From an uncultured bacterium (lineage in GTDB: Bacteria > Patescibacteria > JAEDAM01 > Absconditabacterales > Absconditicoccaceae), in contig CAIVDB010000038.1 of the NCBI GenBank assembly GCA_903904545.1, forward strand, positions 1 to 11,666: 11,666 bases of DNA, given 5' to 3'. The number at the start of each line of letters is the position of its first letter. Within the stretch, counting starts at the first letter, position 1. The position numbers were made by a program, and so were the translations under genes. Below are positions 1 through 11,666 of this stretch, one piece after another. The notes beneath the pieces were generated by a model. It was not told the origin of the DNA. It saw nothing but the letters and a program-made list of their open reading frames with translations, and did not search any database.

Positions 1-261
1 ACCCTTGCCTTGATGCATAGGAGCTACATTAACCCAGAAAATATTATAAATATTATAGTCCATCCATGATTGAATATATCATGCTACGCCGATAATTTCT
101 CATTTCTCTTTCGCGACGATGTATTGGGGATTTACGGTATAATTTTTGAACATTGCCTCCATTTCTATGAAAGACATCTTTTCATATTTAAGAGAATAAT
201 TTTTCCCAACAATCTTAGATGCGTGTTTAATATCACTTTCTTTTAACATTCTAATCTTCAT
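1..261 (-). CDS. GNAT family N-acetyltransferase, N-terminal part (3' end cut by window edge)
   Basis: GNAT enzymes move an acyl group from acetyl-CoA to an amine; the substrate here is unknown. The 87 visible residues start MKIRMLKESDIKHASKIV, the usual GNAT opening (I-R-x-x-x-x-x-D followed by a helix). They include VAKEKGEIIGVAGY, which fits strands beta2-beta3, and end in FWVNVAPMHQGKG, the beta4 strand plus the V-x-P-x-x-Q-x-x-G acetyl-CoA pyrophosphate loop (motif A). The C-terminal half lies beyond the left edge. Two glycines (TGA at 79-81 and 100-102) need UGA=Gly; with UGA as stop the protein would break before motif A. The ATG at 259-261 lies 23 bp after the stop of the S51 hydrolase gene on the same strand, so the two are probably cotranscribed. 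No clear Shine-Dalgarno sequence is seen. The family call is firm, the substrate open. Confidence 0.8.
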
Positions 262-284
262 AGATATCTTTAGAAAAATAAAGC

Positions 285-935
285 CTAAACCATCTTTCCT
301 TCTGGATTAATTTTTATTTCGACTACCCCATCGCCTATTTTTTCGTATTTCTGTGGAAATTCATGGAGATCGAAACCTATACCTGATGCAGAGTCTACGC
401 CGATTCCATAAGTCAGTCCTGTTTCTCTCAGTTCTTGTTCCAGGAGTTTTTCTCTTTTTTTCTCTGCATAATGTCCTTCGATAATCGTATCTGGAATAAT
501 TCAGAGTCCTTGTATCAAAATATTTTCTTTTCCGTTAGTCACCCTTTGCCATTCACCTAAAATTTTTGCTCCAGCAGATTCTCAGATAATAAATTTAGCA
601 TCTTTGATGAGTTTCAAAAGTTGAGGATTTTGGACTATATTTTGCATAAGATTTAGTCCCTTCTCTCCTCCACTTATCAAAATAATAGGGGATGTCGCTT
701 GTTGAATATCTTCTGGATTGGTTGCATTGAGAAATTTCAATCCCTCGATATGGATATTACGATTGAACCAATCCCCTTCCCATTCTGGTTCTGTGGCAAT
801 GGTTCTAGCAAAAGGGACATGAAGGACTTCCTTGATCCCTGTTTGACGAATAGTTTCTTCAACGAGAGAAAGTAATGGCTGTAATTTTGCATGACCATTG
901 CTCGTTTCGGCTCATCAGAATAAATAGAGATGCAT
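285..935 (-). CDS. Peptidase E-like (S51 family, class I glutamine amidotransferase fold) hydrolase
   Basis: A 216-residue protein related to peptidase E and cyanophycinase, serine hydrolases that cleave Asp-X or isoaspartyl bonds. It opens with MHLYLFGGAET (first strand plus glycine turn). LISGGEKGLNLM (86-97) resembles the oxyanion-side loop of the family. IIGESAGAKIL (116-126) is the nucleophile elbow with Ser120, the same number as the catalytic serine of E. coli PepE. GLGIIPDTIIEGHYAEKKRE (143-162) carries the likely catalytic His155, and GIGVDSASGI (177-186) matches the family's C-terminal GIGvDE-like segment. Length is normal for PepE (about 230). Four glycines are UGA, including Gly118 of the elbow and both of FGGAE, so this gene is strong evidence for recoding. 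It ends in TAG. It sits 34 bp after the HD gene and 23 bp before the GNAT gene in the same direction. The exact substrate cannot be read from the sequence. Confidence 0.82.
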
Positions 936-969
936 ATGAAGAGAATTTTAAATTTTAAATTATAAATTT

Positions 970-1575
970 TTATTCGTATTCTTCTTTCCACTCAAATCAT
1001 CGTTTTTGGTATGCATCTTTGAGCTTTCCCTTAGTAATAATGAGTACTTCTTCTAATTCAGGGACATTAGCAACATGCTTATCTGCGTAGGTAGCCATGA
1101 AATCTGGTTGATCAAAAATATTTTCTCCTGCATCGACAAATTGATTCAATGTTTCTACCTTGTCTAATGCTTTGACAAATTTCGCTTCTTTACTTATCCC
1201 CTTTTCATATTCATTTCGATATGAGTAGACTTCTTCTCCCATCTCTCATCATAAGATATCTTTGAACTGGCGCATAGCAGCTTCTTCATTTTGTTGTTTT
1301 ATAGATTTTAAACTAGGATCTTTAACTATCTCATATGCATCTATATCTCCCGTAAGTGCCTCTGCAAGGTCGTGGAAAAGGGCTATCTTGACTGCATGAG
1401 AGACGTCTATATCTTGTCAGATTTCATTTCACAGCAAAAGTACCATCACAGCCAATCTTCGTGAATGTTCTGCAGAAGATTCTTTTCTCTTGAGACTCGT
1501 TACAGAATATCTCAATGCTGCCTTAAGCTTTTCACACTCTTGAAGAAAAGAAATAATGTTTTTTATATTGGTCAT
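970..1575 (-). CDS. HD-domain phosphohydrolase (YfbR/HDDC2-like)
   Basis: A 201-residue metal-dependent phosphohydrolase of the HD superfamily. Relatives such as YfbR and HDDC2 are 5'-deoxynucleotidases acting on dNMPs. The metal and catalytic set is visible: His37 in AEHSRRLA, His68-Asp69 in ALFHDLAEALTGDI (65-78, including Glu72 and Asp77), and Asp138 in KALDKVETL (135-143). Spacing and wording (S-x-A-E-H-S, H-D-L-A-E, G-D-I, D-K-x-E) match HDDC2/YfbR. Five glycines are UGA (LLGNEIGQD, DILGGEM, KRGFEW). With UGA as stop only an internal fragment starting at Met112 would remain and the catalytic half would be lost. It starts at the ATG at 1573-1575 and ends in TAA. It lies between pheS and the S51 hydrolase gene on the same strand. 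A role in nucleotide-pool cleaning is an inference from the family. Confidence 0.85.
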
Positions 1576-1583
1576 AGGGAAGA

Positions 1584-1667
1584 AATTATAAATTATAAAT
1601 GTTAAATTATGAATTTATTACGTGAAGTATTCTAATTCCTAATTCCCGATAAACCGATTCCCGATTC
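1584..1667. repeat. AT-rich word-repeat tract between the HD gene and pheS
   Basis: The gap is made of permuted short words: AATTATAA-type units (1584-1620), then TAATTCC/ATTCCCGAT units (1631-1667). ATTCCCGAT occurs exactly at 1642-1650 and 1657-1665. Similar tracts occur near 944-970, 4140-4222, 9444-9478 and 9532-9566. They appear non-coding. Confidence 0.5.
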
Positions 1668-2690
1668 CTATTCAAAACTCTTTGCAAATCTTAAGTCTCC
1701 ATTTGTGAAATATCTAATATCTTTGATACCGTAGCGAACCGCAGCAAGTCTGCTTATCCCGATACCGAAGGCAAACCCGGACCACTCCTCAGCATCTACT
1801 CCTGCCAACTTCAAAACATTTGGATGCACCATTCCTGCCCCGAGGATTTCCATTCGCTTAGATTTTTCCATCTGTTTGGTCTCTGGATTATACACATCAT
1901 ATCTGACATCTATCTCGAATCCTGGCTCCACAAATGGAAAATATCCAGGTCTCATCCTTGTCTCTACATCTTTGTGCAAAAGTGCTGAAAGTAATTTTCC
2001 CATCGTATCTTTGAAATGTGCTATACTGAGCCCTTTATTGATAACGATTCCTTCCAACTGATAAAACATTACGTCGTGAGAAGCATCCATATTTTCATAT
2101 CTATATACCTTACCTGGCACGACGACCTTAAGCGGTAAACCGTACTTCTGGATAAGGAAATTTTGCATCGCTGAGGTATGAGTCCTGAGAATAAGATTTT
2201 CTCCTTGAGGATCTTTTTCTTGTAAGTAAATCGTATCATGCATCTCCGTTGCTGGATGGGTAAGGGGAATATTTACTGCTTCGAAATTCTCAAATTTAGT
2301 CACGGCTTCTGTCCCGTATTCCATGATAAATCCCATAGATTTACAGATTTCTTCTGCATCTCTTCTGATCTTAGCAAGAAGTGAATAGGTCCCCTGCTGA
2401 CCACGGTCTTTGGTTAATGAAATATCGACAATATCTTCTTGGAGCTGAAGATTGATCTCTGCTAATCCTAGGACATCAGCTTTATCTTCGTAAGTTTGGG
2501 TAAGAATTTCTTTAGCTGAACTCAAATGAGCGCCCAGCGTCTTTTTCTCTTCCGGACTTGCATCTTTGAGCTGTTTGAAAGCCAAAGTCACGCTTCCATT
2601 TTTTCCTAATGAAGCTTCGAAAACAGCTTGTAGATCAGCCTGTGATACGGCATTTATCATATCTTCTTGAATTTTCTGGATATCTATCAT
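1668..2690 (-). CDS. pheS: Phenylalanine--tRNA ligase alpha subunit
   Basis: PheS is the catalytic subunit of the alpha2beta2 enzyme that charges tRNA-Phe. With the ATG at 2690 it has 340 residues, the usual length. The N-terminal ~80 residues are the tRNA-binding coiled-coil region (SLGKNGSVTLAFKQLKDASPEE). Class II synthetase motifs follow: motif 1 near NIPLTHPATEMHDTIYL (140-156), motif 2 with VYRYENMDASHDVMFYQLEG (195-214), then FPFVEPGFEIDV, EILGAGMVHPNVL, and motif 3 GFAFGIGISRLAAVRYGI (305-322). A TTG four codons upstream (2700-2702) is an alternative start; neither has a good Shine-Dalgarno sequence. It ends in TAG. This gene has no UGA codon; all its glycines use GGN. pheT, the beta subunit gene that usually follows, is absent; an HD phosphohydrolase gene comes next, 92 bp downstream. 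Confidence 0.97.
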   Translation of the reverse strand: MIDIQKIQEDMINAVSQADLQAVFEASLGKNGSVTLAFKQLKDASPEEKKTLGAHLSSAKEILTQTYEDKADVLGLAEINLQLQEDIVDISLTKDRGQQGTYSLLAKIRRDAEEICKSMGFIMEYGTEAVTKFENFEAVNIPLTHPATEMHDTIYLQEKDPQGENLILRTHTSAMQNFLIQKYGLPLKVVVPGKVYRYENMDASHDVMFYQLEGIVINKGLSIAHFKDTMGKLLSALLHKDVETRMRPGYFPFVEPGFEIDVRYDVYNPETKQMEKSKRMEILGAGMVHPNVLKLAGVDAEEWSGFAFGIGISRLAAVRYGIKDIRYFTNGDLRFAKSFE

Positions 2691-2723
2691 ATTTTTACTC
2701 AATAAATAAAATACATTGATTGG

Positions 2724-2751
2724 AATGTAATGAAATATCCTGGCTTTTCAA
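2724..2751 (-). promoter_or_regulatory. Possible sigma70 promoter for pheS
   Basis: On the minus strand TTGAAA (2751-2746), a 16-bp spacer and TACATT (2729-2724) resemble -35 and -10 boxes. The predicted start would lie about 25-30 bases before the pheS ATG. The -10 matches consensus at only four of six bases, so this is tentative. Confidence 0.3.
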
Positions 2752-2866
2752 GGACTTATTGAGCTGATTTTCATGGGTTTTTGTGAGGAATCGACTTCTT
2801 TTTGACGTATTTTCCTCTTTTTTTGTCATTTTGTCAATTCAAAAGAAAAGCGGCCTTTGTTTTGTT

Positions 2867-2895
2867 TTGCAATATTTCTCTCTCGGAAGTATAAT
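2867..2895 (+). promoter_or_regulatory. Sigma70-type promoter for the ABC ATPase gene
   Basis: TTGCAA (2867-2872), a 17-bp spacer and a perfect TATAAT (2890-2895) form a good vegetative promoter. A start near 2902 gives a leader of about 30 bases that contains AGGA (2923-2926), five bases before the ATG at 2932. This is one of only two clear Shine-Dalgarno-like sites in the window. Confidence 0.6.
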
Positions 2896-2931
2896 CATAG
2901 TGTACTAATTTTACTCTTTCATAGGAAATAC

Positions 2932-3603
2932 ATGGAGCACAATCAAGATACGCTCTTGCATATTGATGATTTCTCTCGATGATATCCAGACAATGTAAAC
3001 AAATTGTTTGAGAATTTTCATTTTCATTTACAACAATGAGAATTTCGTGTGTTAATGGGGAAATCTGGGACGGGAAAGACAACACTCGTCAAATGTATTA
3101 TTGGGCAGATTCCTGTTCCCCATAAAACCTTTTTTTATAGAGATGAAGATATGGGTCATTATACACAGATTGATCGGGAATCTTTTAGAAAGAAAATAGG
3201 GGTTGTCTTCCAAGATTATAAACTTTTCGATGCACTTTCTGTAGAAGAAAATGTTGCATATCCCCTTAGAGTATTTTGACTTGGAGAAACGATTATAGAA
3301 AACAAAGTCACTGCTATCCTCAAAACACTTGGACTCCATACTATCAGAGAGATGCAAATCCAACTTTTGAGCGCAGGAGAGAAACAAAAAGTGTGCCTTG
3401 CAAGAGCTTTGGTACATGATCCTGAGTTTGTCATTGCGGACGAACCCACAGGCAATCTGGATTGGGAGCATACCCAACAGGTGGCAGATCTTCTTATCCA
3501 AGCAAATACACTTGGGAATACGATATTACTTATTACACATGATATCCATCTTGTCAACTATCTCAAAGAAAAACACGCCATCAAACTTGATATTTTAGGG
3601 TAA
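2932..3603 (+). CDS. FtsE/LolD-type ABC transporter ATP-binding protein
   Basis: A 223-residue nucleotide-binding subunit of an ABC system, of the FtsE/LolD/MacB class by length and layout. Walker A is GKSGTGKT (43-50), the Q-loop is VVFQDYKLFDALSVEENVAYPL (Q94), Walker B is EFVIADEPTGNLD (165-177, catalytic Glu171), and the H-loop is LLITHD (His203). The signature motif reads LLSAGEKQKVCLARAL (145-160), so the usual LSGGE has Ala148 in place of the second-position Gly. Glycines at 17, 36 and 116 (SRGYP, QQGEF, VFGLG) are UGA; with UGA as stop the N-terminal strand and the second half would be lost. The start is ATG 2932, with AGGA upstream and a TATAAT promoter. FtsE partners with the permease FtsX in division and wall hydrolase control, but no FtsX-like membrane gene follows. 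The specific subfamily is therefore inferred. Confidence 0.85.
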
Positions 3604-3626
3604 TTTTATTCTTCTCCCATTGTTTC

Positions 3627-4115
3627 ATGACCACGTGCAAACAAAAGTGCCTTAGTCAAAGTATTATGAAAAACGTCAATAGTCTAGATATTGCCGGCTA
3701 TCTCAAGATAGAAATTGAAGATATCCTCAAGCATCTTCATTATTACAAACTCAAGAATATTTTGCAGAATATAGAAGCGCTCAAAGAGTATCTTCTTGTC
3801 TTAGATAGGCAGAATACTGCTCAAATTCATGAGCTTGACTTTGGTCGTGACCCTGAACGAGAAAAGAAAAATCATGACCTTCACTATTTTGTCTCTAAAT
3901 GAGGACTTACTCATATCGGAGAGATTAAAATGCATCAAAAAATCTGGGAAAATGAGTTTAATCTTCAACACATTATGCAATGAGTAAGAGGTTTTCTCTT
4001 GCTCACTATTGATGAATTTTGTAATGCCTCCCCTACGAGGATGTCGATCAATAGGATGTTTTGGCAGAAAGAGCTTCAAAATACAAAGAAGCCTAGTTGT
4101 GAATTAGTAAAATAG
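3627..4115 (+). CDS. Hypothetical protein (162 aa) after the ABC ATPase gene
   Basis: I do not recognise this protein. It follows the ATPase gene by 23 bp in the same direction and is probably cotranscribed. It is mixed alpha/beta without membrane segments or a signal peptide, so it does not replace the missing permease. An N-terminal helical part (IEIEDILKHLHYYKLKNILQNIEALKEYLLVLD) is followed by a charged stretch (ELDFGRDPEREKKNHDLHYFVSKGGLTHIGEIKMHQKIW) and a hydrophobic segment (GVRGFLLLTIDEF). Two glycines are UGA (TGA at 3900-3902 and 3981-3983), giving HYFVSKGGLTHIGE and IMQGVRGF; stop is TAG. An in-frame ATG at 3666 would shorten it to 149 residues, and neither start has a Shine-Dalgarno sequence. 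Continuous opening across two UGA codons and its place in the transcript support a real gene. Confidence 0.6.
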
Positions 4116-4226
4116 ATAGAATTGTCAAAAATCGTACAAGGTTGAACAAAATTGACCAAAATTGTGAAAGGATTACAAATAACCAATACACAAATATACC
4201 AATACACCAATTCCAAATTCCCTATC
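4116..4226. repeat. AT-rich word-repeat tract after the ABC unit
   Basis: The tract contains variants of AAATTGNNAAAA (AATTGTCAAAAAT, AAATTGACCAAAATTGTGAAA), then CCAATACACAAATATACCAATACACCAATTCC. It is degenerate, without exact long repeats, and non-coding. It ends at the putative bidirectional terminator. Confidence 0.45.
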
Positions 4227-4260
4227 AAAAAAACCCGTCAATAGTAGCCGGGCCTTTTTT
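4227..4260. terminator. Putative bidirectional terminator between convergent genes
   Basis: A run of A (4227-4233), CCCG (4234-4237), an 11-base loop, CGGG (4249-4252), CC and a run of T (4255-4260) can fold on either strand into a short GC stem extended by A-U pairs. It lies between the plus-strand gene ending at 4115 and the minus-strand gene ending at 4279, where a shared terminator is expected. The GC core is only four pairs, so strength is uncertain. Confidence 0.55.
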
Positions 4261-4278
4261 GTAAAAAATAAATATATT

Positions 4279-4770
4279 TTATTCCATTCCTTCATATTTA
4301 TCTATACTCTGAGAGATATACGAAGCATTTCTTACCTTTTTGGCAATATCTTGTTTCAACTCTTGCATAGACTTTTTGGTATGTTTGTGGAGTCTTTCCC
4401 TTATTGCTTCTGCCTCTTGTGTATGCAAAATAGTATCTACCTCATCATTTTTTTGGGGTATTGCTTTTGTAATTTTCTCTTCCTCCCTTATGTTATAGAG
4501 AAATAGTGTCTCATAGAGCTCTCCGTTCGTCAATCCATTGATAATCCACTTCTTCTTTATAATAGCATTTATCCCTTTCTCATCGAGATCCGTACTATTC
4601 AATAAGTCTAACAATTCTTTTCCTTTTCTTTCGATCAATACACAGGCTTGTTTCACATGATATTGTTGTGCTAAATTATGTTCAACATCTTGCTCTGAAG
4701 CAGAATAAGAATATCACAACAATGCTTTAGCCCTTTCATCAATTTTTTGCAAAAGATCTTTTTTCATCAT
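4279..4770 (-). CDS. Hypothetical helical protein (163 aa)
   Basis: Not recognised. The product is charged and predicted largely helical, with no signal peptide or membrane segment. It opens MMKKDLLQKIDERAKALLGY, has a middle part with KELLDLLNSTDLDEKGINAIIKKKW and a clear turn (INGLTNGELYETLFLYNI), and ends in a Lys/Glu-rich helix (EAEAIRERLHKHTKKSMQELKQDIAKK). One glycine is UGA (ALLGYSYS). With UGA as stop, translation would have to begin at a GTG at 4656 and lose 38 residues. Two adjacent ATG codons (4768-4770, 4765-4767) are possible starts, and a TATAAT box lies just upstream. It ends in TAA. It is a single-gene unit, divergent from hrcA and convergent with the ABC unit. The middle loosely recalls a winged-helix layout, but I would not assign DNA binding from this. 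Confidence 0.6.
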
Positions 4771-4791
4771 ATTTTTGATACTATTTAAAAC

Positions 4792-4820
4792 ATTATACAC
4801 ATACCATACATATTTAATAC
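4792..4820 (-). promoter_or_regulatory. Possible promoter for the 4279-4770 gene
   Basis: On the minus strand a perfect TATAAT (4797-4792) lies about 22 bases before the ATG. No good -35 is placed; the best stretch is GTATTA at about 17 bp. A start near 4785 would give a leader of only about 15 bases. The call rests on the -10 alone. Confidence 0.4.
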
Positions 4821-4875
4821 AATAAATCAACCTTTTTTTAAATTCTTTGTTTTTGTACTAGAAAAACATTTTCTC

Positions 4876-4949
4876 TTGCTTGTAAAAAACAAATCCCTAT
4901 ATATATAGTAGTCTTATTTGTTGACAGGTATTTTCATTATTAATTGTAT
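4876..4949 (+). promoter_or_regulatory. hrcA promoter region (two candidates)
   Basis: Candidate one is TTGACA (4921-4926) with TTGTAT (4944-4949) at 17 bp; its start would fall at about 4956, exactly on the hrcA ATG, giving a leaderless message. Candidate two is TTGCTT (4876-4881) with TATATA (4898-4903) inside the palindrome CTATATATAG. No CIRCE inverted repeat (TTAGCACTC/GAGTGCTAA) is seen here, so HrcA autoregulation through the classical operator is not supported. Confidence 0.35.
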
Positions 4950-4955
4950 TACTGG

Positions 4956-5618
4956 ATGGATTTTGATCCTAAATTACTCGCTCTACTAGACGTAGTTATT
5001 GATAATTATCTCAACAAAGGAGAACCCGTAGGCTCTAAATTTTTGCATTCTTTAGGAGATAGTATCTATGCTCCTTCTACCCTTAGAAAATATCTCAATG
5101 TCCTAGAAAAGGCAGGCATGGTCTATCAGCCTTACAATAGCTCATGAAGAATACCTACAGTACAATGATTATCTTTGTATATTGAGTCCTATCTTGTACA
5201 ACAGCAAGAAGAGCAACAAGAAGAAATTCATCATGCGAGAAAATGACTTACCTATCTGGTGGAGACACTCTGAGCCATCGTGGACGGCGTCGTTGTGGGA
5301 TTTATCAGAAATGATGAATATTATTATCTGGGTATCAATAATCTTTTGAGAGATGATCTCATGGATACCTATCAGGATACCAAACAGATCATTCGCTTCA
5401 TAGAGGAAAAAAGAGTTGTGAAGTTTATTGATAGCAAGATTCTTAAGAAAAATCAGATTTACTTCTCTTTCATCGAAGACAAAGATACTACAATTTCTTG
5501 TCTGTATAGCAAGATACCTGTACAAGACTATGATGCGGTCATTTGCGTCATTTGACCTACAAGAGTCAATTATAAACAAAATGTAGCACTTCTTAGGAAA
5601 CTTTTACAATCTTTATAA
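4956..5618 (+). CDS. hrcA: Heat-inducible transcription repressor HrcA, unusually short
   Basis: HrcA represses chaperone genes (groE, dnaK) by binding CIRCE operators. The N-terminal winged-helix domain is clear: LLALLDVVIDNYLNKGEPVGS (7-27, the GePVGSk signature), APSTLRKYLNVLEKAGMVYQP (39-59) and NSSGRIPT (61-68). The C-terminus keeps GINNLLRDDLMD (126-137) and AVICVIGPTRVNYKQ (194-208), the family's closing motif. The product has 220 residues, whereas HrcA is usually about 340. The missing ~110 residues fall between the winged helix and the GAF-like C-terminus, where the inserted dimerising domain normally sits. Five glycines are UGA, three at conserved motif positions (SSG, TLGAIV, VIGPTR). 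The start is ATG 4956; a TTG at 4944 is open upstream. It ends in TAA. No grpE, dnaJ or dnaK follows. Confidence 0.88.
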
Positions 5619-5674
5619 ACACCTGTACCTATGTGAACGGGAACTCCAGAAACCATAGAACGTAGCTGAGCAAA

Positions 5675-5678
5675 GGAG
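5675..5678 (+). promoter_or_regulatory. Shine-Dalgarno site deciding the start of the next gene
   Basis: GGAG within AAAGGAG lies nine bases before the ATG at 5688. Most genes here have no recognisable ribosome binding site, so this one favours 5688 over the in-frame ATG at 5631. Confidence 0.6.
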
Positions 5679-5687
5679 AAAAAAAAT

Positions 5688-6041
5688 ATGCCAAAAGTCA
5701 GCCCTTCTGAATGAGCAAAAAAATCATTAGATGCCCTCAAAACAAAAGAGCAAGAATCTTCTGAGCAAGACAAGCAAGACCTAGAAGTACTTGAAAACAT
5801 CATCCAGGGCAAGTGATCTGGTGGATCAAAACCCCGTACTCCTCCACCTCGTGCCTTTTCTCCTAGGTATCTTCAGTATAAGAAACATATTACAGACTGG
5901 ATTGTACAGCATCCTGAACGTCCACCAGAAGTTGGTCAAGCAGCCTTGGATATGCTTGATATTATAGTCAATAGTCATCAAAATCCCAATATTGTAGCTA
6001 AATCATTGGGGAAAATTATGAAAATTATTTTGAATATATAA
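5688..6041 (+). CDS. Small hypothetical protein (117 aa) downstream of hrcA
   Basis: Not recognised. It starts at an ATG with a good Shine-Dalgarno sequence, 69 bp after hrcA and in the same direction. The first 40 residues are Lys/Glu/Gln/Ser-rich and probably disordered (SPSEGAKKSLDALKTKEQES). Next comes a Gly/Ser/Pro linker (QGKGSGGSKPRTPPPRAFSP), then a compact C-terminal part of two or three helices (YLQYKKHITDWIVQHPERPP, VGQAALDMLDIIVNSHQNPN, IVAKSLGKIMKIILNI). Two glycines are UGA (SEGAKK, GKGSGG). An in-frame ATG at 5631 would add 19 residues, with UGA at its second codon. It ends in TAA. In many bacteria this slot would hold grpE, but there is no GrpE coiled coil or beta domain. Function is unknown. 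Confidence 0.6.
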
Positions 6042-6052
6042 AGAAGAAGATA

Positions 6053-6112
6053 AACGGTAGACGAACAGTAGACAAACAATAGCTAAAATTGAGCTACCGT
6101 TAAGCTATTGTT
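6053..6112 (+). repeat. Interlocking inverted repeats upstream of the Nudix gene
   Basis: Two inverted repeats are arranged A-B-A'-B'. AACGGTAG (6053-6060) pairs with CTACCGTT (6094-6101), and AACAATAGCT (6075-6084) pairs with AGCTATTGTT (6103-6112). As RNA they can form a pseudoknot or, more likely given loop sizes, two mutually exclusive hairpins. The left arms belong to three degenerate direct repeats (AACGGTAGAC, AACAGTAGAC, AACAATAGCT) at about 11-base steps. No T-run follows, so it does not look like an intrinsic terminator. Confidence 0.6.
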
Positions 6113-6221
6113 GGTCGCGAGGCTGCCTGCTAGTTATTTGCCCTTAAGGCTTGATATATCTAAAGGACGAGCGTTTATCCATGAATTAATTAATCCGCTT
6201 TATTCTAATTACATTCATTCT
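6113..6221 (+). other. Unassigned stretch before the Nudix start, locally GC-richer
   Basis: After the inverted repeats comes a stretch less AT-rich than its neighbours (6113-6180), then ordinary AT-rich DNA. The Nudix frame stays open upstream to 6087 without an ATG, but TTG codons at 6108 and 6111 could add 37-38 residues (readable part LPASYLPLRLDISKGRAFIH). AAAGGA at 6162-6167 precedes an ATG at 6181 that meets TAA after one codon. I found no tRNA or known RNA motif. It may be a leader or a small RNA. Confidence 0.3.
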
Positions 6222-6722
6222 ATGTGAGATATTATCCAAAGTGCATGAGGTATTGTGTACTATATTGCTCCTGATGGAACTCCTAGATATCTTTTGATCA
6301 AAAGACATGCTTTGAGTGGCAAAATCGAATGGGTTGCCCCCAAAGGAAAAATCCAATGAACTGAGGATATCCAGCAAACTGCCTTGAGAGAGGTAAGTGA
6401 AGAGACAGGCATTCCTATCAATCAGATGAGAATCAAACAAAAGATGGGCGTTACTCAGCTGAGAAATACCGAGAATATCAAAGGACAAATGGATAAAGAT
6501 GTCACTTATTTTCTTATCCAATATTTTGGAGATCCACAAACCGTAAGGATAGAAAATGTAGAATGATATATCGGCATCTATAAATGGGCTAACTTACAAG
6601 AAGTGCTTGCGCTTATTTATTATCAGGATATTAGAGAGATTATTAGAAAATGTCATATGTTGATCCAGGAAAATCAGAAGAATTCCTCTATAAAACAACA
6701 TTTTATCGACCAATTGAAATAG
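6222..6722 (+). CDS. Nudix hydrolase
   Basis: Nudix enzymes hydrolyse nucleoside diphosphates linked to another group, using a divalent metal. The 166-residue product opens GDIIQSAGGIVYYI and has LLIKRHALSGKIEWVAPKGK. The complete Nudix box follows at residues 44-66: G-K-I-Q-G-T-E, seven residues, then REVSEETGI (58-66), matching G-x5-E-x7-R-E-U-x-E-E-x-G-U. The W-V-A-P-K-G-K approach to the box resembles Ap4A/MutT-type members, but the substrate is not determined. Four glycines are UGA: codon 2, SAGGI, GTED just inside the box, and VEGYI. With UGA as stop no complete box could be made. ATG 6222 was chosen because it begins the family's usual first strand; a TTG start upstream is possible. 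It ends in TAG. It is codirectional with hrcA and the small unknown gene. Confidence 0.88.
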
Positions 6723-6753
6723 GATTGCTTTTGGACCGCTTTTTTTTATAGTA

Positions 6754-6777
6754 TATGGGTTATTACTTATGGGTTAT
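6754..6777 (+). repeat. Short direct repeat TATGGGTTAT
   Basis: TATGGGTTAT occurs at 6754-6763 and 6768-6777, separated by four bases, in the gap before the HPF-like gene. It might be a protein-binding site or chance in AT-rich DNA. It belongs to the same word-repeat style as other gaps here. Confidence 0.4.
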
Positions 6778-6830
6778 ATTAGATATATTTAGACAATTGA
6801 GTATGTGTACTTTATTTACTAACCCCTTAC

Positions 6831-7166
6831 ATGATGAACAATCCAATTATTTCTTATACCTTTACCGATGTTGCTCAAGAGATTCAAGATACTATCAAGA
6901 GTATAGTACAGAAGAATCTTGAGGGGAAAATGGATGCTTATCTCAAAAAAATCACAAAAAATAAACAAGATGCTGAGATTAGAATAGAATACAAGTTTGC
7001 TCAAGATAAACAAAAGAAGTATTCCTGTAACTTTATCTTTGATTTCGATGGGCTTCACTTTATGTATGAGAGTAAAGTCCCGTTCAAATTCCCTGAAGAT
7101 TTGGTCAATCATGCATTCAAACATGCAAAAGAATTCTTATCTAAGCAAGAGTCTCTATCAGAATAA
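6831..7166 (+). CDS. Ribosome hibernation factor-like protein (HPF/RaiA, S30AE fold), tentative
   Basis: A 111-residue protein whose predicted order is strand (IISYTFTDV), long helix (EIQDTIKSIVQKNLEGKMDAYLKKI), three strands (AEIRIEYKFAQ, KYSCNFIFDFDG, LHFMYESKV) and helix (PEDLVNHAFKHAKEFLSK). This is the beta-alpha-beta-beta-beta-alpha order of HPF/RaiA proteins, which bind the 30S decoding groove and inactivate ribosomes in stationary phase. Length fits short-form HPF (about 95-115). The V-x-K-N-L-x-x-K-x-x-x-Y helix and the lysine-rich surface also agree. The DmYaAID motif of typical HPF is replaced by EDLVNHAFKHA, so this is a fold-level argument. ATG codons at 6831 and 6834 both fit. 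No UGA codon occurs, as in its neighbour greA. It lies 27 bp before greA in the same direction. Confidence 0.55.
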   Translation: MMNNPIISYTFTDVAQEIQDTIKSIVQKNLEGKMDAYLKKITKNKQDAEIRIEYKFAQDKQKKYSCNFIFDFDGLHFMYESKVPFKFPEDLVNHAFKHAKEFLSKQESLSE

Positions 7167-7193
7167 TTTTTTATCTTTTATACTATCATTATT

Positions 7194-7697
7194 ATGAAGA
7201 AGAATTTCCTTACCAAAGAAGGATATGAAGAGCTTATCCAAGAGTATAATGAGTTGAAGACAGTCAAGCTTCCTCTTGTTTTGGAAAGATTAGGAGAAGC
7301 AAAGGCCATGGGAGATCTTTCAGAAAACTTTGAATATAAATCTGCACTTGAAGATAAAGATTTTATTAATTCTAGAATGTCAGAGATTGCCACACTTATT
7401 GAGAATGTAGAAATCATCAAAGAGGAAGGGAAATCTGGGAAAGGAGAAAGAACAGTAGATTATGGAGCAAAAATCATCCTAGATATCGAGGATGATGGAA
7501 GATACACGGTAACTATCGTTGGTACTGGAGAAACGTCTTTTGAATTTGATGGAGGACTCAAAGGAGTCAAGGATACCCTCAAAATTTCATTTGAGTCTCC
7601 TATGGGGATGGCACTTAGAGGGAAAAAGATTGGTGATACCGTAAAAATGAGATTAGCAAATGGGAAGAAAGAAATCAAAATTGTAGATATTCAATAA
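7194..7697 (+). CDS. greA: Transcription elongation factor GreA
   Basis: GreA binds the RNA polymerase secondary channel and stimulates cleavage of backtracked RNA. At 167 residues it is near the usual ~158. The N-terminal antiparallel coiled coil is clear: FLTKEGYEELIQEYNELKTVKLPLVLERLGEAK, then the tip signature MGDLSENFEYKSALEDKDFI (39-58) with the acidic residues that act at the polymerase active site. The C-terminal FKBP-like domain contains VDYGAKIILDIEDDGRYTVTIVG, SFESPMGMALRGKKIGDTV and the closing IKIVDIQ. All glycines use GGN, with no UGA. It starts at ATG 7194, without a good Shine-Dalgarno sequence, and ends in TAA just before a strong terminator. The HPF-like gene is immediately upstream. 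Confidence 0.97.
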   Translation: MKKNFLTKEGYEELIQEYNELKTVKLPLVLERLGEAKAMGDLSENFEYKSALEDKDFINSRMSEIATLIENVEIIKEEGKSGKGERTVDYGAKIILDIEDDGRYTVTIVGTGETSFEFDGGLKGVKDTLKISFESPMGMALRGKKIGDTVKMRLANGKKEIKIVDIQ

Positions 7698-7713
7698 TCT
7701 CTTCTACAAACAC

Positions 7714-7751
7714 AAAAAAAAACTGGAGAACATCTACTCTCCAGTTTTTTT
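7714..7751. terminator. Intrinsic terminator after greA, bidirectional
   Basis: CTGGAGA (7723-7729) and TCTCCAG (7738-7744) form a perfect 7-bp stem with an 8-base loop. It is preceded by a run of A and followed by seven T (7745-7751), so it works from either strand. It separates greA (plus) from the convergent gene ending at 7780. Confidence 0.9.
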
Positions 7752-7779
7752 GTATGGAATAATTATCTCTATCATTATA

Positions 7780-8763
7780 TTATTGTTTACTGAATGTCGA
7801 TTTAGTGACTTTCCGTTCGTTTCGTGTATCAAAGTTGATAGTACATTGAACCGCCTGTTTTTTATTACTTTCCCCCTTGAGGGTAAGAAGAATATTTTTG
7901 GGGTTCCCATATTGGATTTTGGAGGAATCTATCGTCTTGAGTGATTCATCTTCATTTGCACATTCCTCCTGGATGATAGGAAGTTTATTTTTTATAATGA
8001 AATCTTTATTTACTATATGCACCATACTAGAGATATTGAGCATCATATCATCATCTATATTTTTGAAGACATACCCAAAAATATTCCCATCAAAAGTTGT
8101 TCGGACATCTGTCGTATGTTTATAAAAGATATCTCCTGCATAGGACTCAAAATTATCTTTTTGAGAATTACGATATTCGCTTATCAGGGCATCGCATGTC
8201 TTTCCTTTTAGAATTTGTGCACAGAGAAAACGCTGAATATTTACTACAGGTTTACCTGCGAATCGAATTATGACATCACGTCATGAAAGGCTTGCTGATA
8301 ATTGTGTCTGTGAAGAGAAGTCGATATAGAGAAAATCATCTGTAAAATAATATATATTATTTTTGATAATCAATCCCTGATCGGGAAGTTTGATAGACTG
8401 AACTTCTACGATAGGAGTGCGTTTGAGAAATTTCTCTAATTTTCCTACTACTTCTACATCTCCTTTGTATGCATTCAAATTTACTGACACACTTTTTATG
8501 CCAATGTGTATTCCTTTTTTGTCTATAATACTATGGGTATAATGAGGAAAATTATTATCCGAGGAAAGGCGTCCTGAAATATGAACGAACTCCCCAATTT
8601 GTTCTGAAGTCAGATCGACAAGTGTTGCTGTTTGTCTATTTACTCGAGAAAGAATTCACTTTCCAATAATAATCACAATAATAAGGAGGATAGCCCGGTT
8701 CATTATTTTCTTTCTACTTACTATTTCATTTTTTCTGATTTTCCTTATAATCATTTCAACCAT
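7780..8763 (-). CDS. Membrane-anchored protein with possible OB-like domain, function unknown
   Basis: Not recognised as a named family. The 327-residue product has a basic N-terminus (IIRKIRKNEIVSRKK), one membrane segment (AILLIIVIIIGKGIL, about 24-38), and a long region predicted to lie outside the membrane. Residues 58-123 (EFVHISGRLSS, IGIKSVSVNLNAYKGDVEVVG, TPIVEVQSI) have the beta-strand rhythm of an OB-like barrel, including the Y-x-G-x-V-x-V-x-G-K-L-E pattern. The rest is mixed, with cysteines at 181, 190, 268 and 307. UGA encodes Gly36 (GKGIL) and Gly161 (SLSGRDV); read as stop, UGA would split the gene into fragments. Three ATG codons are possible (8763, 8754, 8703); the last begins right before the membrane segment and has a weak AGAAAG upstream. 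It ends in TAA, 29 bp from the shared terminator. Its gene is divergent from rsmG. Confidence 0.6.
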
Positions 8764-8804
8764 TAAAATTCTAAAAAAGAATATATCAAGCAATTATACG
8801 TTTT

Positions 8805-8832
8805 TTCTAAGAAAATGCAATACTTCTTAGAA
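8805..8832. promoter_or_regulatory. Pair of TTCTnAGAA palindromes in the divergent rsmG region
   Basis: TTCTAAGAA (8805-8813) and TTCTTAGAA (8824-8832) are each palindromes around a central base, and the arms also pair with each other across the gap. Centre-to-centre distance is 19 bp, close to two helical turns, in the 113-bp gap between divergent genes. This is operator-like, but no regulator is identified. Confidence 0.35.
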
Positions 8833-8876
8833 CGCACGTATGCTCCACTCCTCTTTACCCTTTTCCCGAGATACCT

Positions 8877-9446
8877 ATGGATCGAGCACCCCTCATCAAA
8901 ATATTTCTTGAAATGAATACCCATCTCAATCTTTCTGCGATTAGAGATCCTGAAGGAGTAAAGATCAAACACATTATGGATTCTATGGAGTTGACTAAGT
9001 TTTTTCCCTTGGAAAACAATACTACTGTTTGTGATATTGGTACTGGGGGAGGATTTCCGCTCCTTCCTTTGGCAATATATTATCCTTTAGTTCATTTTAC
9101 ATGAATCGATTCAACGAGAAAAAAGGTCGATGCGGTTAATGCTATGATCCAAAAACTTGAGATCAAAAATGCCAAAGCGATTCGAGCAAGGAGTGAAGAC
9201 TACAAGGAAGAATTCGATGTCGTCACTGCGAGAGCTGTGGGATATATAGATAAGGTCTTAGAATGGAGTTATCATCTATTGAAAAAGGGAGGACATTTTG
9301 TCTTCTACAAACAAGTCTCTCCTGAGGAAAAAACTGACTTACTAGAAATGTGTAAAATAGGAAAACTCAAACTTGTTCATGAACATATCTATTCGCTCCC
9401 TCCTGGAGATATCGAAAGAGTAATCTATGTATTGAAGAAAAACTAA
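8877..9446 (+). CDS. rsmG: 16S rRNA (guanine(527)-N7)-methyltransferase RsmG
   Basis: RsmG methylates N7 of G527 in 16S rRNA using S-adenosylmethionine. The 189-residue product has NTHLNLSAIRDPEGVKIKHI (14-33, the nlta-rdpeei-rH family region), the SAM-binding loop VCDIGTGGGFPLLPLAI (51-67), FTGIDSTRKKVDAV (74-87, strand beta2 with the acidic ribose-binding residue), FDVVTARAVG (113-122) and LLKKGGHFVFYK (134-145). Gly76 is UGA (TGA at 9102-9104), just before the conserved Asp. Family members usually have 205-240 residues; here about 20-25 N-terminal residues are missing. The frame upstream of ATG 8877 is open to 8811 but offers no start codon. It ends in TAA. The usual neighbours (mnmG, parA/parB) are absent. 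Confidence 0.93.
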
Positions 9447-9486
9447 TGTGTAATGCGTAATTTTTAATGATTAATGATAGTATATT

Positions 9487-9531
9487 TCTGTCTAACAGAT
9501 TCCTTCACTACCTGTCCCGCACCAGGCGGGG
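9487..9531. repeat. Two hairpins between convergent rsmG and the VanW gene
   Basis: TCTGT-CTA-ACAGA (9487-9499) is a small perfect hairpin. CCCGC-ACCAG-GCGGG (9516-9530) is a GC-rich stem-loop that stands out in AT-rich surroundings. Neither is followed by a T-run. They sit where a terminator is expected between convergent genes, so one may serve as a terminator, or the GC-rich one may be a dispersed repeat. Confidence 0.45.
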
Positions 9532-9566
9532 AACACTAAGCATTCAACACTCAACATTAGCAAAAA

Positions 9567-10640
9567 CTATCTACTTTCATTATTTTTTCCCATATAGACA
9601 GAATCGAAAGAAATTGTTTGAAGGAGATGATAAGATAATCAATCCTCCATATGGGTATCCTGAGAGGGAAAGACGGGAGTTGGTATTTTTGTTCTCCGTT
9701 TTTTCCATGTTTTTTTATATATCTGCTTTGTAAGTTTTACAGACAACTCGCTATTCCAAGTTTTCGTAATGGTAACAAAATCATCTATTTTGTACGGCGA
9801 AATCGCAGCTATATAGGTGGTCTCTCCAAATTTTTTTGTCCTAATATAGACAGCCGCATCTGAGGTATTTTTAATCTCAAATTGTTTTCTCATTTGCATC
9901 ATTGCAGCATCATCTCCGTGAACTTCCTGTCCATAATAGACGGTAAACCATTCGTTATGCGGGGCTCTTTTTGTGATTGTAATCCTAGGATGCAAGAGCG
10001 CTACTCTAAAAAGTTGAGAACTTACTCCACAGACACCTCCATAAAACATAAGTTCATCATTATTTTGTCCTCTACAATATCATTGAAGAGACTCTAAATG
10101 AGTATTTAGGTTATAGAATTCTCCTTTTTGTACTAGTTGTTTGTCTAAGGAAGAAAACGCTACCTCATAATTTTGTCTCGTACATGGCTTAAGCTGTGAA
10201 ATATCCTTATCTGCAACATAGAAGCTATATGTATTGAGATAATAATGAGCAAGTTGATTCTTAGTAATAAGAATAAATTTCCCTTGTGTTGCTGCTTTAC
10301 GAAGGGATTCTTTTTCTGCTTGTGTTTCAGGAACAAGTGAAGGATATTTTTTCTTATATACTGGTTGCGTTGCTTCATATGTAAATTTTTTATTACCTGC
10401 TTGATATATACTTTCAAATCATTGGACTTCTGACCAAACTTCGTCTACGGCTGTCTGCAATGACATTTTGGGGAGTGTTCATCTCAATAGACACTGTGGA
10501 GAAACAATAAAATCTTTCCCTTGCGCACGGATAGTGCATGGATTTTTGATATAGGTGGCATAGATATCCTGGAATATATACATACAGATACTTATAAGAC
10601 ACAGAAATCGACTGATATATAAGACTCTTTTTCTTTTCAT
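9567..10640 (-). CDS. VanW-domain secreted protein
   Basis: A 357-residue protein with a signal-like N-terminus (KRKRVLYISRFLCLISICMY, ending near IYA at residue 28). The C-terminal half is a VanW domain: GEFYNLNTHLESLQGYCRG (173-191), corresponding to the family's GevFSFN...GY; FYGGVCGVSSQLFRVALLHP (199-218), corresponding to GGGVCQVSTTLFNAALL; ITKRAPHNEWFTVYYGQEVH (222-241), corresponding to the R-x-x-H-x-x-P-V-x-Y segment; and FEIKNTSDAAVYI (254-266). VanW is named from a vancomycin resistance cluster, but its biochemical role is unknown, so no resistance claim follows. The Gln of VCQVS is Gly here. Four glycines are UGA. One of them (TGA at 9641-9639) extends the protein by 25 residues to TAG at 9567, a tail that ends GKNNESR. 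The gene stands alone, convergent with rsmG and divergent from the pilin gene. Confidence 0.8.
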
Positions 10641-10666
10641 GACCAGACAATAAGTAAATATCTTGT

Positions 10667-10696
10667 TATATATAAAAATTATCTTCTATTTTACAA
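10667..10696 (-). promoter_or_regulatory. Possible promoter for the VanW gene
   Basis: On the minus strand TTGTAA (10696-10691) and TATATA (10672-10667) are separated by 18 bp, placing a start about 20 bases before the ATG at 10640. The surroundings are very AT-rich, so chance matches are likely. Confidence 0.35.
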
Positions 10697-10736
10697 TCTA
10701 TTCGTATTTTTTTTCTTCTCAATAAGTTGATTTTTC

Positions 10737-10763
10737 TTGGAAAAAAACTATCTATGCTATAGT
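10737..10763 (+). promoter_or_regulatory. Possible extended -10 promoter for the pilin-FISUMP gene
   Basis: TGCTATAGT (10755-10763) is an extended -10 element (TGn plus TATAGT). A TTGGAA (10737-10742) lies 15 bp upstream of the -10 box. A start near 10770 would leave a leader of about 18 bases without a Shine-Dalgarno sequence. Confidence 0.4.
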
Positions 10764-10787
10764 GTATTTTGTCTCATTATAAATTAC

Positions 10788-11666
10788 ATGTGTAGATTTT
10801 CTTGATTCACTCTTATTGAGATGATGATCGTTATGGGTATCATTAGTATATTTTCTCTGACGCTCCTCCCAAGGATCTCATCATACAAAGAGAGAGCTTT
10901 ACGTGCCACCGCAGCCAAAGAAATGTCTGACATCAGCTATGCCCTTTCTCTGTATTTTTATGACAAGTGAAATTATCCTGCTTCCAGTACCTGTAGTGCG
11001 GGGATAAAAACCGACTGCTCTCTCTCCTCTATAAGGTCAAATCTTTCTCAATATCTTTCTAGTATTCCTAGAACAAGTTATTCTCTTGCAGCCAATCGAT
11101 CCTTTGGTAGTGCATACCTTGTACCCATAGCCAATCAATATGGATATGTCGGTCTTGGGAATTATTATATTTTCACCTATCATACTACTGACACTAGAGA
11201 TAACCAGCAGTATAGGGTAATTAATATGCCCGATAAAAAAGTTTGGTTAGCAGAGAATCTCAATTATGCGACCAATGACTCTTCGTGTTATAATAACAAT
11301 CCCACACAATGTGCTAATGATTATGGAAGACTTTATACCTGGGATGATGCCCAGACAGCGTGCACTCCCTGACGACATTTAGCCTCTAGCAATGAATGGA
11401 CAGCACTCATTGATAACGCTGGTATAAATCCTTGAACTGCGCTTAAAGCTCCCTCTGCCTGAGGTGCCGATACGTTTGGGCTCTCTATTCTGCTTGCAGG
11501 AAGAAGTAATGGAAATAGTTTCCATGATCGTGATAGCGACTGAGTATATCGGACTCCCCAACCTGGTAACTGAAATAATTGAGTAACCGTCAATTTCTCT
11601 GCATCAAGTGCTTCTATTTCTTTCGGTCAAGATCCTAAGAGTCGATGACGCTCTATTCGTTGTATA
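10788..11666 (+). CDS. Type IV prepilin-like protein with C-terminal FISUMP domain (3' end cut by window edge)
   Basis: The 293 visible residues start with a class III (prepilin) signal: short leader MCRFSG, then FTLIEMMIVMGIISIFSLTLLP. Prepilin peptidase would cut after Gly6, Phe7 would be methylated, and Glu11 is the conserved +5 glutamate. Residues 40-130 look like a pseudopilin stalk and small head (AKEMSDISYALSLYFYDKGNYP, like T2SS GspG). From about 141 a FISUMP domain (Fibrobacter succinogenes major paralogous domain) follows: YRVINMPDKKVWLAENLNYA (142-161), GRLYTWDDAQTACTPGRHLA (180-199), SSNEWTALIDNAG, LKAPSAGGADTFGLSILLAG and, at the right edge, SRGRSIRCI, the usual GxSVRCI ending. 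The missing part is therefore short. Nine glycines are UGA, including Gly6 itself. It probably acts as a surface pilin or minor pilin; the role of FISUMP is unknown. Confidence 0.85.

Follow-up and report, generated by a model that had tools for sequence, protein, structure and literature searches.

The 11,666 bases of contig CAIVDB010000038.1 analysed here (the window, meaning the whole of this stretch) have a G+C content of 35% and carry 16 protein genes, which lie over both strands and cover 88% of the sequence; the first and the last of them, genes 1 and 16, extend past the window ends. The subject of this analysis is the genetic code in which these genes are written. UGA is read as glycine, and CGA and probably CGG appear to stand for tryptophan. 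The codons assessed for meaning were TGA, TGG and the CGN box, and the genes and codons that carry the argument are these:

285..935, minus strand: Peptidase S51 (Pfam PF03575); 4 in-frame TGA
582-584, minus strand: TGA of the motif [TGA]ESAG in the Peptidase S51 gene, TGA read as G
970..1575, minus strand: HD-domain (YfbR-like) hydrolase (Pfam HD_3); 5 TGA, 3 CGA
1216..1218, minus strand: codon 120 of the HD gene, CGA, in a Trp column
1459..1461, minus strand: codon 39 of the HD gene, CGA, at the conserved Trp of EHS[W]
1668..2690, minus strand: PheS, phenylalanine-tRNA ligase alpha (Pfam PF01409); no TGA, 1 CGA
1854..1856, minus strand: codon 283 of PheS, CGA, in a conserved Trp column
2932..3603, plus strand: FtsE-like ABC ATPase (Pfam ABC_tran); 3 TGA, 1 CGA, 1 CGG
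4944..5618, plus strand: HrcA-like repressor (Pfam HrcA); 5 TGA
5145-5147 and 5553-5555, plus strand: TGA of the HrcA motifs SS[TGA]R and VI[TGA]PTR
6108..6722, plus strand: Nudix hydrolase (Pfam NUDIX); 4 TGA
8877..9446, plus strand: RsmG (Pfam GidB, 129.8 bits); TGA at 9102-9104, CGA as codons 3 and 103
10737..11666, plus strand: type IV pilin-like protein with FISUMP domain, partial (Pfam Fib_succ_major); 9 TGA, 3 CGA, 1 CGG
11370..11375, plus strand: codons 212-213 of the pilin gene, adjacent TGA-CGA, matching a Gly-Trp pair of FISUMP
11550..11552, plus strand: codon 272 of the pilin gene, CGG, in Fib_succ_major, the sole informative CGG

Start codons are uncertain; the Nudix frame has one CGA and the HrcA frame one TGG upstream of the first ATG.

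Across the 3,425 codons of the 16 genes, TGA stands in frame 46 times and TAA and TAG not once. The same genes shifted by one base hold 64 TGA, 57 TAA and 86 TAG, and shifted by two bases 123, 101 and 55. With TGA counted as a stop, frames that stay open for 150 codons or longer take up 22% of the window, and with TGA counted as a sense codon 90%; dropping TAG or TAA from the stop set instead brings the coverage to only 33% or 57%. The initial annotation, made from the sequence alone, had UGA read as glycine throughout, with in-frame TGA in 13 of the 16 genes, and the codon count agrees. It had further described 15 complete genes, all ending in TAA or TAG: the choice of stops holds (nine TAA, five TAG, no TGA), the number does not, since 14 genes end within the window. 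The motifs at which it had placed TGA were found as well, in HrcA and Peptidase S51 at the positions listed and in the pilin as [TGA]FTLIE.

The residue encoded by TGA was assessed with Pfam profiles in seven of the 13 TGA-holding genes, reading the codon as glycine, tryptophan, cysteine, arginine or serine. This gave eight domain scores, made up of each protein's top family plus N_methyl. Summed over the eight, glycine exceeds tryptophan by 57.7 bits and is ahead in six; it exceeds cysteine by 45.8, arginine by 37.5 and serine, the nearest of the four rivals, by 19.2 bits. All four rival residues were rejected on these sums, and the glycine reading of the initial annotation is borne out. In that annotation a comparison of glycine with tryptophan had been proposed for HrcA, S51, pilin, Nudix and RsmG. 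The outcome is divided: the first three favour glycine (Peptidase_S51, 46.6 against 34.7 bits, +11.9; HrcA, 31.7 against 24.1, +7.6; Fib_succ_major, +18.6, and N_methyl, +10.8), as do ABC_tran (109.3 against 104.4, +4.9) and HD_3 (+8.2), and the last two do not, by about 2 bits each (NUDIX, 50.7 against 52.9, -2.2; GidB, -2.1). These two scores weigh against glycine, and so do two results from the HD protein, in which serine beats glycine by 2.0 bits and none of the five TGA columns is mostly glycine among the 51 homologues kept. The second match of RsmG, Methyltransf_31, scores 46.7 bits with glycine and 40.8 with tryptophan, and the RsmG TGA column holds glycine in 106 and tryptophan in 13 of the 119 homologues listed. 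In the pilin, the single protein for which ten residues beyond the five were also scored, glycine is top among all 15. Glycine as the meaning of UGA, as in genetic code 25, is thus well supported, both by the Pfam scores and by the codon counts.

One line of evidence on CGA comes from columns in which homologues conserve tryptophan. For PheS, 14 outside loci were obtained by scanning genome contigs with the protein; none is from Absconditabacteria. They bear names of Actinobacteria, Acidobacteria, Obscuribacterales and Lambdaproteobacteria, and the standard code is assumed for them. At codon 283, the CGA of PheS, all 14 have tryptophan, the query being in its tryptophan reading, and tryptophan also stands there in the five PDB alignments shown, for which the query was in its arginine reading. 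Among 119 listed homologues the same column has 76 tryptophans, 43 arginines and no third residue. In the HD protein, four of the 55 homologues (P0124, P0125, P0126 and P0145) were dropped, as they show arginine at CGA or TGG columns and tryptophan at TGA columns; in P0124-P0126 arginine and tryptophan are exchanged at the CGA and TGG columns. The 51 kept have at codon 39 49 tryptophans, one tyrosine, one gap and no arginine (all 55: W 50, R 2, Y 1, gap 2), and at codon 120 38 tryptophans, 12 glutamines, one threonine and no arginine (all 55: W 39, Q 12, R 3, T 1). The PDB alignments have tryptophan at codon 39 in 3kh1 and tyrosine in four HDDC2 chains, and tryptophan at codon 120 in five of the five shown.

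The pilin adds a column in which both codons stand side by side. It had 11 plasmid matches and no match to phages, and the four plasmid matches that extend into the FISUMP domain, from Bacteroidota and Vibrio plasmids, were aligned. Because X was set at every TGA, CGA and CGG, the alignment was not steered, and all four homologues have glycine-tryptophan at codons 212-213. CGA is therefore found at tryptophan positions in PheS (283), the HD protein (39) and the pilin (213), as the Absconditabacteria code has it. TGG stays tryptophan, as the initial annotation had held: HD codon 196 is tryptophan in 54 of 55 homologues (51 of 51 once the four records are dropped) and PheS codon 307 at 14 of the 14 outside loci. 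The HD protein was also searched in 14 genomes, with a match in one, and three protein scans of viral contigs gave no matches.

Profile scores were obtained with CGA and CGG read as arginine or as tryptophan, these two only, in six of the nine genes that hold them, one of the six without any match. Over five Pfam domains the net gain with tryptophan is 36.8 bits. HD_3 rises from 118.3 to 133.2 bits with CGA as tryptophan (+14.9), the PheS family PF01409 (tRNA-synt_2d) from 246.1 to 252.8 (+6.7), and Fib_succ_major from 47.2 with both codons as arginine to 56.0 with CGA and 64.6 with both as tryptophan (+17.4); ABC_tran is level (109.3 to 109.4, +0.1). As a control, CGT and CGC were read as tryptophan in two proteins, and the scores fell, Fib_succ_major to 43.6 (-3.6) and tRNA-synt_2d to 241.8 (-4.3). 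PheS codon 323, a CGC, has 101 arginines, 17 lysines, one gap and no tryptophan in 119 listed homologues.

Several results weigh against tryptophan. GidB drops from 129.8 to 127.5 bits with CGA as tryptophan (-2.3), and the secondary matches Methyltransf_31 and AAA_21 lose 1.8 and 2.8 bits with CGA and CGG so read. RsmG codons 3 and 103 have arginine in 93 of 119 listed relatives each, with 14 and 24 tryptophans, where the relatives' codons may be CGA too. HD codon 192, the third CGA of that gene, is uninformative, the column being mostly glycine (36 of the 51 kept). For CGG the support is confined to one Pfam column, that of pilin codon 272, which gains 8.6 bits in Fib_succ_major as tryptophan (P0182 against P0122) and holds methionine in the homologue of the only one of four local alignments to reach it. 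On sequence grounds, then, CGA appears to encode tryptophan, and CGG probably does so as well.

The listed relatives need a word on how their proteins were translated. They comprise the best 120 of 7,476 for PheS, the best 120 of 623 for RsmG, and 55 for HD; the counts over 119 exclude P0185, a 99% identical PheS, and P0001, the window's own RsmG (8877-9446). The latter record carries tryptophan at its TGA, which is taken to be the result of automatic translation with UGA as tryptophan. Since the window's RsmG is so recorded, relatives that show tryptophan in a glycine column probably have a TGA codon there, and because of this translation artefact tryptophan at the TGA columns of unnamed relatives was left uncounted as evidence for tryptophan. 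The 14 columns in which PheS has a GGN glycine hold, over 119 listed homologues, 1369 glycines, 269 tryptophans and 28 others including gaps, and 86 of the 119 have at least one tryptophan among them. In ten of the 14 columns, 12 or more of the 14 outside loci have glycine; columns 167, 188, 261 and 335 fall short of this. RsmG relatives show the same pattern of glycine and tryptophan at glycine columns.

Taken together, these observations (open frames, conserved-column residues and profile scores) lead us to hold with confidence that the window is Absconditabacteria-like (SR1) chromosomal DNA with a doubly altered code, UGA being glycine and CGA, probably with CGG, tryptophan. That UGA might be tryptophan, in a Mycoplasma-like code 4, is the least credible of the other readings. 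The tryptophan in the database copy of RsmG and the margins of about 2 bits in NUDIX and GidB speak for it, and a code 4 assignment falls 57.7 bits under glycine in sum, with glycine ahead in six of eight domains. Plain genetic code 25, with UGA alone reassigned and CGA and CGG left as arginine, has annotation practice on its side, having been applied to both groups in papers of 2021 (PMC8406219) and 2023 (PMC10746230), and the 2.3 bits that RsmG gains in GidB with CGA as arginine. It is very improbable in view of the CGA at the tryptophan columns of PheS 283, HD 39, HD 120 and pilin 213 and of the gains with tryptophan in HD_3, FISUMP and PheS (+14.9, +17.4 and +6.7 bits). The initial annotation had assigned this code; its glycine stands, and arginine for CGA does not, given the tryptophan columns in PheS, the HD hydrolase and the FISUMP pilin.

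A narrower change, in which UGA is glycine and CGA tryptophan with CGG still arginine or mixed, is unlikely, though less so than either of the foregoing. CGG occurs just five times in 3,425 codons, and the one informative column has methionine in one local alignment. That same column gains 8.6 bits as tryptophan, and both codons were inferred to be tryptophan in Absconditabacteria (PMC8629427). The doubly altered code is preferred to all three.

This code is known biology. UGA as glycine is established in these groups, and glycine for UGA together with tryptophan for CGA and CGG was predicted computationally for Absconditabacteria by Shulgina and Eddy in 2021 (PMC8629427) and repeated in 2026 (PMC13092985). 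The window is like the code described there in its glycine UGA, in CGA at tryptophan columns (and CGG at one), in CGT and CGC that are not tryptophan where tested, and in its low G+C and use of AGA as the main arginine codon. With NCBI genetic code 25 (SR1, Gracilibacteria), credited to Campbell 2013 and Rinke 2013, it shares glycine at UGA and TAA and TAG as stops; the table differs in giving arginine for CGA and CGG, which fails here for CGA. The remaining codons are thus not all standard, as the tryptophan columns and Pfam gains indicate, and code 25 is incomplete because CGA occupies conserved tryptophan columns. Proteomics has shown glycine for UGA, as in the window, in a bacterium of the sister group BD1-5/SN-2 (Hanke 2014, PMC4032931); a search for 'CGG', not for CGA, found none in the main text of that paper.

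The doubly altered code would work with stops limited to TAA and TAG, and CGT, CGC, AGA and AGG are taken to stay arginine. Going by published work, a tRNA-Gly with anticodon UCA would read UGA, release factor 2 would have been lost, and tryptophan-charged tRNAs with anticodons UCG and CCG would serve CGA and CGG. The 2021 study names tRNA-Gly(UCA) as the UGA reader, with release factor 2 kept by two Gracilibacteria that have UGA as a stop, and it assigns CGA and CGG to tRNA(UCG) and tRNA(CCG), both compatible with a tryptophan identity (PMC8629427). No tRNA genes were found within the 11,666-base window, and a search for tRNA-Gly(UCA), with a pattern made from the general layout of tRNA-Gly, gave no matches. 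Nor did the contig scans bring up any relative's DNA that carries tRNA genes.

The placement was judged from the names in the match lists, without a tree and with a comparison set that holds no Gracilibacteria sequence. The organism-named records among the best 120 of 7,476 for PheS are six Absconditabacteria types and one 'Peribacteria', and among the best 120 of 623 for RsmG five SR1/Absconditabacteria types and three 'Peribacteria', with no Gracilibacteria in either. Of the 55 HD relatives, those with names are more distant, at no more than 53% identity, and are Pacebacteria, Moranbacteria, Magasanikbacteria and unplaced bacteria. CGA as tryptophan favours Absconditabacteria over Gracilibacteria because PMC8629427 gives CGA and CGG for the former and, where it touches on the latter, mentions CGG alone of the two, in some members. 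The choice between Absconditabacteria and Gracilibacteria that the initial annotation had left is thereby sharpened towards the Absconditabacteria side. Four records labelled 'Candidatus Peribacteria' (P0018, P0023, P0119 and P0275) are listed alongside the SR1/Absconditabacteria records as near relatives of the window's RsmG and PheS and may come from mislabelled bins.

The other genes of the window are the following:

1..261, minus strand: GNAT acetyltransferase, partial (Pfam Acetyltransf_1, E 8e-06); 2 in-frame TGA
3627..4115, plus strand: hypothetical gene, open frame, 2 TGA, 1 CGA; a longer frame, 3276-4115, is without Pfam match
4279..4770, minus strand: hypothetical gene, open frame without Pfam match; 1 TGA
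5631..6041, plus strand: hypothetical gene, open frame without Pfam match; 4 TGA
6831..7166, plus strand: small hypothetical gene, open frame without Pfam match; no TGA
7194..7697, plus strand: GreA (Pfam GreA_GreB_N, 71.8 bits); no TGA
7780..8793, minus strand: hypothetical protein, without Pfam match as R or W; 2 TGA, 4 CGA, 2 CGG, no TGG
9567..10640, minus strand: VanW-like protein (Pfam VanW, 49.1 bits); 4 TGA, 1 CGA, 1 CGG

If CGA and CGG are tryptophan, the reassigned codons encode all six tryptophans of the 7780-8793 protein. The VanW-domain protein has a hydrophobic N-terminal segment, and its family name does not imply resistance. The last gene (10737-11666) joins a FISUMP (Fib_succ_major) domain to a type IV pilin-like N-terminus and possibly encodes a surface adhesin.

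Tryptophan-type codons in the 3,425 number 17 CGA, 5 CGG and 23 TGG, so that CGA and CGG make up 22 of the 45 presumed tryptophan codons (95% interval 34-64%). AGA is the arginine codon used most, which with the G+C of 35% matches the published clade. Per 10,000 codons the window has 49.6 CGA and 14.6 CGG, where the Absconditabacteria of PMC8629427 have fewer than 37 CGA and, bar one species, fewer than 7 CGG, the published counts covering Pfam-aligned columns and ours all gene codons; the excess over the published upper values is not significant (P=0.14 for CGA, 0.10 for CGG, 0.055 for both together). A rebound of CGA and CGG to rival UGG has been described in one Absconditabacteria assembly (PMC8629427). 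We suggest, tentatively and with the odds somewhat against it, that the passage of these codons to tryptophan is far advanced in the lineage of the window and that they have rebounded genome-wide to rival UGG.

For annotation the consequences are practical. Table 25, as used in PMC8406219 and PMC10746230, would write arginine for tryptophan at about half of the window's presumed tryptophan positions, table 4 writes tryptophan for glycine, and signs of both mistranslations are present in the protein collection searched. For the biology of the group, the window supplies conserved-column support for a sense-codon reassignment that had been predicted computationally, and a lineage rich in CGA and CGG would be a good target for its proteomic proof.

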